Below the pieces are notes generated by a model. That model had not been told where the DNA came from and searched no databases. It saw only the letters and a program-made list of their open reading frames with translations. Position numbers and translations under genes: made by a program. A DNA stretch of 64,000 nt from Terriglobia bacterium (GTDB lineage Bacteria; Acidobacteriota; Terriglobia; JAIQFV01): positions 186,001 through 250,000 of the forward strand of contig JAIQFV010000003.1 of assembly GCA_020073085.1 (NCBI GenBank). Reading direction: 5' to 3'. Shown here one piece after another: positions 4,050-53,800 of this stretch. The first letter of the stretch is position 1; every line of letters starts with the position of its first letter.

Positions 4050-4105
4050 CTAATACAAACGTTGGAAATAGAGTTACATGGGGCAATTGTGGAATCTTCG
4101 CGGTG

Positions 4106-4131
4106 GGGGTGTCCGCCCCGGCGGACGCCCC
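4106..4131. repeat. GC-rich hairpin between FeS and FAD subunit genes
   Basis: GGGGTGTCCGCC (4106-4117) pairs with GGCGGACGCCCC (4120-4131) with a two-base loop and one G-T pair. It lies in a 129-bp spacer inside an otherwise co-directional gene set. It may attenuate or stabilise the transcript, or be a dispersed repeat; a similar CCGTCCGCCCGGGCGGACGG palindrome occurs near 13,045. Confidence 0.6.
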
Positions 4132-4178
4132 TACCGGGAATCAAGTGCGATTTTGTGATATTTTCAATGGCGTTCGCA

Positions 4179-5069
4179 CTAGATCACGCTTGACCCGTAT
4201 TCGGGCCCATTGCCCTCCAGCCTCGACGTTGCCGCCCGCAGGCCTCGTCTCAACATGACACCGATCATGTGAGCCCGGTATTCGCGTGTCGCTCGAATGT
4301 CGGTAATCGGCGCGATTTCCTCCGGAATAAGCCGCATGACCTCTTCCAGAAGTGTGTCGGACAACGCTTTGCCCTCAAGGTGCGCCTCGATTTTAGGAGC
4401 ACGGATCGGACGCGGCGCCACAGACCCGAATGCGACTCGATAACTGTTTCCCGCCAGGGCAAGGACTGCCATGCTGGCCTGAGCGAGGTCGCCCCCCTCG
4501 TATCGCTTCAGTTTGACAAAGCATGCCGCGTGTTTCTTCTTCGGAAGGGGGATGGCCAGCCCGGTGACGATTTCGCCCCTCTTCAGGGCGGTATTCCGCG
4601 GCCCTGTGAACCAGTCGGCGATCGAAATCTTGCGCTTGCGCACAGGCCCCGTGACAAGGACAGAGGCATCGTAAATCAGGAGAATCGGCCCGCTGTCGCA
4701 GCAGGGAACTGCAGAGCAGATGTTGCCGACCATGGTCGCCCGGTTCCGAATACCGACCGAAGCCACCCATTCTGTCATTTCCCGAATGACCGGAAATCTC
4801 TTTTCAATGATGGGGGAGTGCCTCAAGTCGCTGAAGGTGACCAGGGCTCCGACGGAAAGGATGTTGTTCTTCAGTTCAATCTGATCGAGACCCGCGAGCC
4901 CTTTGAGATCGATGACAACCTCCGGCTTGACCGCATCCTCTGCTATCAGGGCGACAAGATCGGTTCCTCCCGCAAGAAGCTGGGCGCGGCTTCCATATCG
5001 AGCGAGCGTTTTGACCACCTCGATCAGCCGGTGTGGCTTTATGTATTCGAATTGATGCGCAATGGCCAT
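4179..5069 (-). CDS. molybdenum hydroxylase, FAD-binding medium subunit
   Basis: The 296-residue protein belongs to the CoxM/XdhB type. The N-terminal half is a PCMH-type FAD-binding domain with LLAGGTDLVAL (about residues 35-45) and TMVGNICSAVPCCDSGP (about 112-128). The C-terminal half is the CO dehydrogenase flavoprotein C-terminal fold. It accepts electrons from the FeS subunit and passes them to NAD+ or another acceptor. It is upstream of the other two subunit genes on the same strand, giving the order M-S-L. The spacer on its upstream side holds a 7-bp-period repeat array. Confidence 0.92.
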   Translation of the reverse strand: MAIAHQFEYIKPHRLIEVVKTLARYGSRAQLLAGGTDLVALIAEDAVKPEVVIDLKGLAGLDQIELKNNILSVGALVTFSDLRHSPIIEKRFPVIREMTEWVASVGIRNRATMVGNICSAVPCCDSGPILLIYDASVLVTGPVRKRKISIADWFTGPRNTALKRGEIVTGLAIPLPKKKHAACFVKLKRYEGGDLAQASMAVLALAGNSYRVAFGSVAPRPIRAPKIEAHLEGKALSDTLLEEVMRLIPEEIAPITDIRATREYRAHMIGVMLRRGLRAATSRLEGNGPEYGSSVI

Positions 5070-5107: not shown

Positions 5108-5358
5108 AGGTGTTAGGTAATAGGTGATAGGTGTTAGGGGCCAAGTGTCGGTTGACAGACAGGAGTCAAATCGAAGACCGGAGCCATTGAACAGGAACAT
5201 TGCAGGGCACTTGCTAAGATCTGTCAAAGGATTATGGAGAATGAACCGCGGTTCCCCGACAACCGAACGCCCTGAGCTCATATCTACCAGTTCGCCCCAT
5301 ACATCTACTACCCATAATCTATTACCTATCGCCTACCACCTATCACCTATTCCCTACT
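5108..5358. repeat. inverted pair of heptanucleotide repeat arrays
   Basis: The left arm (5108-5142) reads AGGTGTT, AGGTAAT, AGGTGAT, AGGTGTT, AGGGGCC, a strict 7-bp period. The right arm (5310-5358) reads ACCCATA, ATCTATT, ACCTATC, GCCTACC, ACCTATC, ACCTATT, CCCTACT, the complementary heptad. About 165 bp of unrecognised sequence separates the arms. The right arm overlaps the stop codon of the cyclase gene (5354-5356). The same architecture with another heptad occurs in the permease spacers. Confidence 0.85.
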
Positions 5359-6172
5359 TCGGCGGAAGCAGAGCCACGATGCGACACATCGCGGATTCCA
5401 TCTCGATTCCACGCAGTGGGAAACAACCAATCCAGACCCTCTGGTTGCTGACCTTGTCGATCTCGCCGCCCAGATTCTCGGCGTGGACCAATTTTTTCGG
5501 AAAAAGCTTGAGGTGCATGACCTGGTAATACTTCTCCGGCGGAAACATCTGATCCCAGGCCTTCCCATACTTCCCCTGGAGTTTCTTCTCGGCCTCGGCA
5601 AATCGCGCCGGGTGCCAGTTGCGGATGATCGTGTTCATCGGATGATCGGCGCTGCCGCAGTCCACGCCAATCCACTTTAACTTCATATCGAGCGCCCATT
5701 CATGGAATTTGGGGTCCGGGCCGGGGTGCTTCACGAAATAACGGATCTCGTCGGAGCCCTTCTGATCCCAGGCGTAGCGGTGGTAGCCGGTATTGATGAT
5801 GAGGATATCTCCCTTCTTGACCTTGACCTTTCGGGTGATCATTTCAGGAGAATAGAGGTCGTAGTCGCCAGCCTCTTTGGAGATGTCAGCGATGGCCCCG
5901 GGACCGATCCATTCATCAATCGGGACCTGGCCAATGGCTCGCCCGCTGGCGTGGAAGTGGATCTCCCCGTCCATGTGGGTGCCCACATGATTGCTGGTGG
6001 TGATGATCTGTCCGTTCGCGCCCTGTCCCATGTGGGCACCCGCAATGCGCTTGAAGTATTGGATGCCCAACGGCATGTAACTCGGCCACGGCGGGGTGTG
6101 AATGCTCAACCGCTGCGTCAGATCGTAAACCCGTACCTTGTCCATGAATTGCAGGAATTGCTCTGTGTTCAT
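5354..6172 (-). CDS. cyclase-family metal-dependent hydrolase
   Basis: The 272-residue protein shows the family signature SNHVGTHMDGEIHFH (about residues 60-75), the HxGTHxD metal site shared by kynurenine formamidase, isatin hydrolase and related amide- or lactam-opening enzymes. It is somewhat longer than bacterial KynB (~210). It lies between the Mo hydroxylase genes and the DUF1116/FdrA/DUF2877 set, 26 bp downstream of DUF1116. Opening a cyclic amide made by the hydroxylase fits this place, but that role is inferred from context. No tryptophan-pathway genes are nearby, so kynurenine is not favoured. Confidence 0.85.
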   Translation of the reverse strand: MNTEQFLQFMDKVRVYDLTQRLSIHTPPWPSYMPLGIQYFKRIAGAHMGQGANGQIITTSNHVGTHMDGEIHFHASGRAIGQVPIDEWIGPGAIADISKEAGDYDLYSPEMITRKVKVKKGDILIINTGYHRYAWDQKGSDEIRYFVKHPGPDPKFHEWALDMKLKWIGVDCGSADHPMNTIIRNWHPARFAEAEKKLQGKYGKAWDQMFPPEKYYQVMHLKLFPKKLVHAENLGGEIDKVSNQRVWIGCFPLRGIEMESAMCRIVALLPPK

Positions 6173-24397: not shown

Positions 24398-24444
24398 GGA
24401 GGTCGGAGGTCGGATGTCAGGGTGTTTCTCTGACTTCTGACTTC
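24398..24444. repeat. heptad arrays in permease spacer 1
   Basis: GGAGGTC, GGAGGTC, GGATGTC (24398-24418) face TGACTTC, TGACTTC (24431-24444). The period is 7 bp and the arms are inverted relative to each other. Confidence 0.85.
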
Positions 24445-29963: not shown

Positions 29964-30108
29964 AGTCAGATGTCGGAAGTCCGAAGTCAGAAGAGACGCC
30001 GATGGAAGCAGCCAACACCCAAAACAGGTCTGATCAGCAGATCTGTTAGTCTGGCTTCTTGCTTCTGGCATCACTTGCGGTTTGAGGTCCGACTTCCGAT
30101 TTCCGACC
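29964..30108. repeat. heptad arrays in permease spacer 3
   Basis: The left arm (29964-29991) reads AGTCAGA, TGTCGGA, AGTCCGA, AGTCAGA; the right arm (30088-30108) reads TCCGACT, TCCGATT, TCCGACC. The 96-bp centre contains CAGATCTG and GTCTGGCTTCTTGCTTCTGG, which recur in spacer 4. Confidence 0.87.
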
Positions 30109-32797: not shown

Positions 32798-32969
32798 AAG
32801 TCGAGGTTTGAGGTCGGGATTGCCAATTCAGAACCGATTCACAACAAACGAGCAAGACCAAAAACAACTCAGATCGGCAGATCTGTCAGTCTGGCTTCTG
32901 GCCTCTGGCATCACCTGAGCGTTGACTTTCGACCTCCGACTTCCGACCTCTGACTTCTGACTTCTGACT
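32798..32969. repeat. heptad arrays in permease spacer 4 (longest)
   Basis: The right arm is seven consecutive heptads (32921-32969): GTTGACT, TTCGACC, TCCGACT, TCCGACC, then TCTGACT three times. The left arm (32798-32818) is AAGTCGA, GGTTTGA, GGTCGGG. The centre carries CAGATCTGTCAGTCTGGCTT-like sequence shared with spacer 3. Confidence 0.87.
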
Positions 32970-32997
32970 TCATCCTGTCATCCCTGGCACTCGCGAG

Positions 32998-53401: not shown

Positions 53402-53800
53402 TTTGGGCTGCGCATTCGACAGCCGGAAAGCGCTCGATCCCCGTTGGATAGAAGGACGGGTCCGGTTGGCCATCCCTCGGGGTGCCGCAGGCATGTGCTT
53501 TTGACATGCCGGCGCTGGAACCAATGAGCCCGGAGCTCCTTTCCCGGGAGCCTTCCGTCGCCGACATGCAAACAGCGCATATCGGCGGCACCCGGCTTCA
53601 TTCTTTGGATTGGACATTTCGCAGCTGAAAACGCTCGATCCCCGTTGGATAGAAGGACGGGTCCGGTTGGCCATCCCTCGGGGTGCCGCAGGCATGTGCT
53701 TTTGACATGCCGGCGCTGGAACCCATGAGCCCGGAGCTCCTTTCCCGGGAGCCTTCCGTCGCCGACATGCAAACAGCGCATATCGGCGGCACCCGGCCCT
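53402..53800. repeat. 201-bp tandem duplication carrying two inverted-repeat elements (copies 3 and 4)
   Basis: A unit of about 200 bp occurs twice in a row. Each contains an element with ends GGGTGCCGCAGGCATGTGC and GCGCATATCGGCGGCACCC, at 53,480-53,593 and 53,681-53,794, exactly 201 bp apart. The inner sequence (such as CGATCCCCGTTGGATAGAAG and GAGCCCGGAGCTCC) is almost identical between units, so the duplication is recent. Minus-strand frames of 165 residues through this region are repeat artefacts. Confidence 0.9.

Follow-up and report, generated by a model that had tools for sequence, protein, structure and literature searches.

An inverted heptad element between cyclase and molybdenum hydroxylase genes in a Terriglobia genome and its putative relation to IVP/S23 proteins

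Two inverted arrays of heptanucleotides at positions 5108 to 5356 of the window (the whole 64,000-nucleotide stretch analyzed) most probably represent a gene-less version of an element in which the arms are putative DNA binding sites of the 23S rRNA IVP/S23 protein family, a reading derived from sequence comparison to which we assign a probability of roughly 0.65. Comparable pairs of arrays occur throughout the genome, and in many phyla they bracket genes of this four-helix-bundle family. Within these loci the heptad varies with the protein, and with one residue of it in particular. When the window was taken alone the arms were weak (TRF scores of 41-48), and the case for the element at 5108-5356 depends upon the genome-wide family.

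Structure and setting of the element

The left arm (5108-5138, plus strand) comprises 4.4 heptads of the TAGGTGA family with the AG sense running inwards, the successive units being AGGTGTT, AGGTAAT, AGGTGAT and AGGTGTT followed by a final AGG. The right arm (5296-5356, minus strand) is the left arm inverted and holds approximately eight heptads, which read on the minus strand as TAGGGAA, TAGGTGA, TAGGTGG, TAGGCGA, TAGGTAA, TAGATTA, TGGGTAG and TAGATGT and are best kept at 5319-5356. The inverted arrays described in the earlier note, with AGGTGNT-type heptads on the left, were thus confirmed, while the spacer between them (5139-5295) measured 157 bp and not the 165 bp claimed. It is gene-less and dissimilar to the spacers of other elements. 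No IVP match was found in it by comparison with IVP genes, and a degenerate IVP gene as its content was rejected on this ground.

Both neighboring genes are transcribed on the minus strand. Upstream lies a putative cyclase (5354-6172, PF04199), and the right arm does cover its stop codon as the earlier note had stated, since the TAG (5354-5356, minus strand) comes from the first heptad of that arm. Downstream is the FAD subunit of a molybdenum hydroxylase (4179-5069, minus strand; PF00941, PF03450), the start codon of which lies 38 bp past the left arm. The arrays lie where the two operon halves meet, with the cyclase on one side and the hydroxylase FAD subunit on the other, in agreement with the earlier description.

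A genome-wide family of heptad arrays

The 5.79-Mb genome was searched with a TAGGTRN triple-heptad pattern, TAGGTRNTAGGTRNTAGG, with the reversed pattern as control. A total of 80 matches at approximately 32 sites was obtained, against none for the reversed pattern; the genome-wide frequency by which the earlier note had proposed to judge the arrays thus speaks in their favor. An unbiased sample, 400 kb of contig C1 examined for strict self-match segments at each lag, gave 13, 14 and 10 segments at lags 7, 14 and 21, respectively, no more than four at any single lag outside the multiples of 7, and none in Markov sequence. The earlier note was right about the inverted 7-bp arrays and their non-coding period.

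Approximately ten heptad families form inverted pairs around spacers of about 130 bp, mostly amid co-directional genes. Besides the TAGGTGA family, the units include TCAGCGA, GTCAGAA, AAGTCCA, CAGTGGT, TCAGGTG and AAATTCC, typically as inverted pairs, with the AG-rich strand running inwards from the left arm. Across 22 paired gene-less elements from this genome and its sister species the median spacer was 128 bp (quartiles 115-148), and none of the 22 was placed between divergent genes. Many arms start no farther than about 10 bp from a stop codon. Apart from those of orthologues, the spacers of gene-less elements share no sequence with each other or with IVP genes. Further inverted GTCAGAA/TCTGACT arrays are present in the window amid co-directional genes at 24398-24444, 29964-30107 and 32890-32971. 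Inverted arrays of a 9-base unit (the TCTGTTCAG family) were observed at C1:12037-12695 and C1:38639-39056 of this genome (G000) and constitute an analogous element class with a different period; the second of these sites is occupied by a heptad element in the sister species G001.

Heptad arms flank IVP/S23 genes

The genome contains 13 matches to TIGR02436 (23S_rRNA_IVP, the S23 four-helix-bundle family, PF05635). Seven of its ten full-length IVP genes lie between inverted heptad arrays, and two full-length genes are without arrays. In a sample of 174 IVP loci from Acidobacteriota, Chloroflexota, Planctomycetota, Nitrospirota, Bacteroidota and others, the flanks displayed a period-7 signal at lags 7, 14 and 21 only (lag 7, z = 21-26), and 100 of the loci carried arrays on both sides; control windows far from IVP genes held an array in 15 of 247 cases. 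The two arms of a locus match each other as inverted copies: the mean correlation of the left unit with the inverted right unit was 0.86 within a locus. Between loci it was 0.39, and for units compared in direct orientation 0.34.

The element at 5108-5356 shares its unit with an IVP gene of the sister species (L129), which has TAGGTGA-type arms. The orthologue at the same site in this genome (L035, G000:C9:96893-97213), which is the nearest candidate protein that the genome encodes, has TCAGGTG arms, and the two proteins are 70% identical. With differing arms and differing proteins at one site, both the arms and the protein have changed together. A further relative of L129 is found in a different phylum: the IVP protein of L205 (Chloroflexota, Oscillochloris) is 64% identical to that of the acidobacteriotal L129, and the flanking arrays of both open with TCAGGTATCAGGGGTCAGG although the loci are non-syntenic. 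Such shared likeness of protein and array suggests transfer of the gene along with its arms. No IVP relatives were found among phage records.

Heptad sequence follows protein sequence

The unit of IVP elements is close to YAGNNNN, and the more alike two proteins are, the more alike are their heptads (Mantel r = 0.449, p = 0.0005). When each protein was paired with its nearest counterpart in another genome and syntenic pairs were excluded, the heptads had a similarity of 0.61; the remaining IVP elements in the counterpart's genome scored 0.40 (p = 3e-5). This comparison speaks against base composition as an explanation. Restricted to within-genome comparisons, the correlation was r = 0.43 (p = 0.065).

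Base 4 of the heptad can be predicted from residue 46, which directly follows the NIAEG motif. Histidine and tyrosine accompany G (12/12 and 5/5), cysteine and arginine accompany C (8/8 and 4/5), and glutamine accompanies T at 46 of 65 loci; the glutamine loci are mixed, and L129 itself combines glutamine with G. When bases were simulated along the protein tree for comparison, the residue-46 column reached z = 6.4 and ranked second of 98 columns, and the joint H/Y and C/R counts were reached in none of 300 tree simulations. In a stricter test, which asked for residue and base changes on the same tree branches, five were counted against 2.9 expected, a difference without significance (p = 0.14).

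The rule was also applied to 19 plasmid loci (18 cyanobacterial, one gemmatimonad) that had played no part in finding it. All histidine or tyrosine loci with a clear heptad unit have G at base 4, the sole cysteine locus with an array has C, and phenylalanine loci have A or T with the exception of L354, which has G and violates the code. Three tyrosine loci with the unit AAGGCAG are ambiguous, and the heptad anchor is uncertain wherever a unit contains two AGs; L356 duplicates L339, and two loci are array-less. That the heptad changes in step with one IVP residue suggests that the IVP-family protein reads the repeat.

Fixed sites with changing content in a sister species

G001 belongs to the same genus, with 89% identity in the FAD subunit, and appears to be Terriglobia bacterium SRVP_39 (Acidobacteriota), whose record contains an identical IVP protein. 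The element at 5108-5356 is present there at the same place; the left arm is identical at 31 of 31 bases, and the spacer is about 60% alike with its orientation unchanged. In G001 (L085 after 2660) the right flank of the element enters other, mobile-element-like sequence and not the cyclase gene.

Over 180 kb compared between the two species, nearly all elements occupied common sites and their content differed. At one site, 9-base repeats make up a 416-bp element in one species, and the other species has a 69-bp TCAGC element there; another element has CAGTTGT-type arms in one species and CAGTGRC-type arms in the other, changed on both sides; and one array pair has collapsed in one species. 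One spacer is inverted between the species (C1:53162-53280 versus C15:53152-53248; reverse score 75, forward score 16), and C1:170704 is probably a second, weaker case. Fixed sites with moving content fit sequence exchange between arms. Within the 180 kb neither a clean empty site nor a target duplication turned up, and only collapsed arrays were seen; nearly all elements sat at common sites, so that the comparison gave no sign of recent transposition. Likewise, no empty site of an IVP element was found: those of L129 and L035 are orthologous and both occupied, and the flank of L031 had no G001 match. The intergenic segment between the FeS and FAD genes of the window (4060-4182) aligns with G001 also in the opposite orientation; it may be a further inverted spacer, organized around a GC-rich palindrome instead of heptads.

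Relationship to known repeat systems

One close likeness is to the intervening sequences (IVSs) of 23S rRNA that carry an S23/IVP ORF in Leptospira and Coxiella, whose ends are likewise complementary and enclose either a spacer or an S23/IVP gene. In the Coxiella IVS, tandem heptamers GACAGAT (equivalent to CAGATGA) of variable copy number lie upstream of the ORF (PMC4990558). The element at 5108-5356 has the complementary terminal stem of an IVS, and the S23/IVP ORF, optional in IVSs, is missing from it and present in related elements such as L129. It differs in being intergenic and ORF-less with arrays on both arms. No rRNA gene was found at its locus or at 17 related loci, and an rRNA location was rejected.

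Inverted heptads have also been described apart from rRNA. Xanthomonas GGGAATC heptads form approximately 70 convergent inverted pairs per genome, intergenic and near the 3' end of the upstream ORF (PMC4692102). Period, convergent pairing and 3'-end placement are common to these and to the elements of this genome, whereas the unit is another one; the Xanthomonas pairs were read as G-quadruplexes with no link drawn to IVP proteins (PMC4692102). A solved IVP protein, XCC0516 (2gsc), comes from the same Xanthomonas species. In Geobacter metallireducens, classes 1-3 are tandem heptads or octads in opposite-strand pairs at variable distance (PMC2700814). They were read as regulator sites and their units differ from those here, except that class 3 (MTYCTGA) resembles the GTCAGAA/TCTGACT arrays of this genome and window. 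The STRR heptads of cyanobacteria and TAACTGA of Beggiatoaceae are dispersed heptad arrays (PMC4679880). They were characterized as direct repeats, and TAACTGA was interpreted as a translational signal in the vicinity of start codons.

On cyanobacterial plasmids, IVP genes lie inside heptad arms. Four-helix-bundle (IVP) genes with flanking repeat arrays were observed in L340 (1468-1836), L344 (1474-1833) and L341 (1468-1824). Plasmid genes annotated as 'four helix bundle' often occur within operons; two cyanobacteria have the IVP gene between cas6 and cas4, and a third has it within a cmr operon. The presence of IVP genes at cas loci was noted earlier (PMC3936711), and insertion of IVP elements at cas6/cas4 and cmr may explain why they were reported as cas-associated.

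By analogy, many short non-autonomous copies beside a few with a protein gene recall the palindromic REP/RAYT (REPIN) system. The genome encodes 19 Y1_Tnp genes; heptad arrays were absent from the seven Y1 transposase loci inspected, and a REP/RAYT origin was rejected. Partial matches to reverse transcriptase (RVT_1) numbered five. The gene-less elements also resemble MITEs in having terminal inverted repeats, no coding content and many copies, yet their spacers, unlike those of typical MITEs, are mutually unrelated except between orthologues, and a MITE with a conserved core was rejected.

Inverted heptad pairs (Xanthomonas, Geobacter) and heptamers in one IVS (Coxiella) are already known. 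No paper tying heptad arms to IVP proteins was found in the literature searched, and the heptad/IVP system to which the 5108-5356 element belongs appears to be undescribed.

Proposed mechanism and alternative explanations

The element class is best described as small, intergenic units laid out as an AG-sense heptad array, a spacer and an inverted heptad array. In fuller members a single gene for a 23S_rRNA_IVP/S23/Avd-like four-helix bundle takes the place of the spacer of about 130 bp. The heptads most probably act as tandem DNA binding sites for IVP-family proteins, with each protein unit or step of an oligomer taking one heptad, and we propose that an oligomer seated on the heptads of both arms would draw the element ends together. 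Mutual sequence exchange would keep the arms matched: a crossover between them would turn the spacer around, and conversion would alter both arms jointly. Copies without a gene, the one at 5108-5356 included, are most likely derivatives that lack autonomy and now persist at fixed sites, mostly amid co-directional genes where they would do least harm. The arm-bound oligomer may serve transposition, retro-copying, arm exchange or regulation, and past mobility of the elements is inferred along with DNA binding, end pairing and arm conversion. To our knowledge, IVP proteins have no known catalytic activity. The solved relatives 2gsc and 2rld have five chains per entry, and the Xanthomonas structure was published as an assembly of five four-helix bundles, going by the title of a reference cited in PMC3936711. 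The Avd protein of diversity-generating retroelements is a homologue (PMC10053308). Three heptads make 21 bp, which amounts to two turns of the helix and would bring every third unit to the same side; this is arithmetic and not evidence.

An alternative, which extends the stem suggested in the earlier note, is that the arms act in the operon transcript, folding into a long stem that brings about termination, stabilization or RNase III cutting and separates expression of cyclase and hydroxylase. A stable fold is indeed predicted for the minus-strand RNA (MFE -94.2 kcal/mol, z = -2.5), the element stands amid co-directional genes directly after a stop codon, and RNase III is known to cut the stems of rRNA IVSs (PMC4990558). 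Selection on the transcript would lead one to expect G.U mismatches in excess of A.C, whereas the two were equally frequent in the sense direction at 104 IVP loci (192 versus 191) and similar in twelve gene-less co-directional elements (30 versus 37). The matching of the arms is hence, as far as this test tells, a property of the DNA, and RNA-structure selection was rejected as unsupported, although a stem of the kind pictured in the earlier note is possible. Moreover, spacers can be inverted between species while the arms stay matched at the DNA level, the heptads covary with a protein residue, and elements amid convergent genes have the same form. We therefore regard a role in the transcript as unlikely. 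A functionless, protein-free by-product of mutation, arising from slippage and template switching at a small palindrome near gene ends, would suit the joint change of arms at fixed sites, the rapid turnover of unit order and the collapse of arrays in one species; it leaves the period of 7 across phyla, the IVP genes inside the arms and the unit that follows the protein without explanation, and appears quite improbable.

Several classes of paired opposite-strand tandem heptads led to the proposal of a conventional global regulator in Geobacter metallireducens (PMC2700814). Its sites would be expected in promoter regions, for which the present elements have no preference (0/22 paired elements amid divergent genes), and the many unit families per genome each match their own IVP protein, so that such a regulator is very improbable here. 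The G-quadruplex reading proposed for the Xanthomonas GGGAATC and Nostoc GGGGATT arrays concerns arrays with the same period, the same inverted pairing and the same placement at 3' ends (PMC4692102). It is nevertheless scarcely credible here, since units such as TAGGTGA and TAGGTAA lack a tract of at least three Gs and many other families, among them TCAGCGA, AAGTCCA and AAATTCC, are unable to form a quadruplex.

Returning to the reading of heptads as IVP binding sites, a wider form of it is evenly poised between being right and wrong: S23/IVP proteins, familiar chiefly from rRNA IVSs, would be sequence-specific readers of tandem YAGNNNN heptads in nucleic acid, with residue 46 setting base 4, and the elements a multi-phylum class including rRNA IVSs, the cyanobacterial plasmid copies within cas operons and probably the Xanthomonas heptads. 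Heptad arms around IVP genes and the residue covariation join three long-open questions, namely the over-representation of heptads in bacteria, the purpose of rRNA IVSs and the function of S23/IVP (Avd-like) proteins.

Two other repeats were observed in the window. Palindromic 13-mers, AGGGACAGTCCCT, are tandemly repeated at 21-79 and 328-366, and a 201-bp unit is present in 1.9 tandem copies with 98% matches at 53426-53797.
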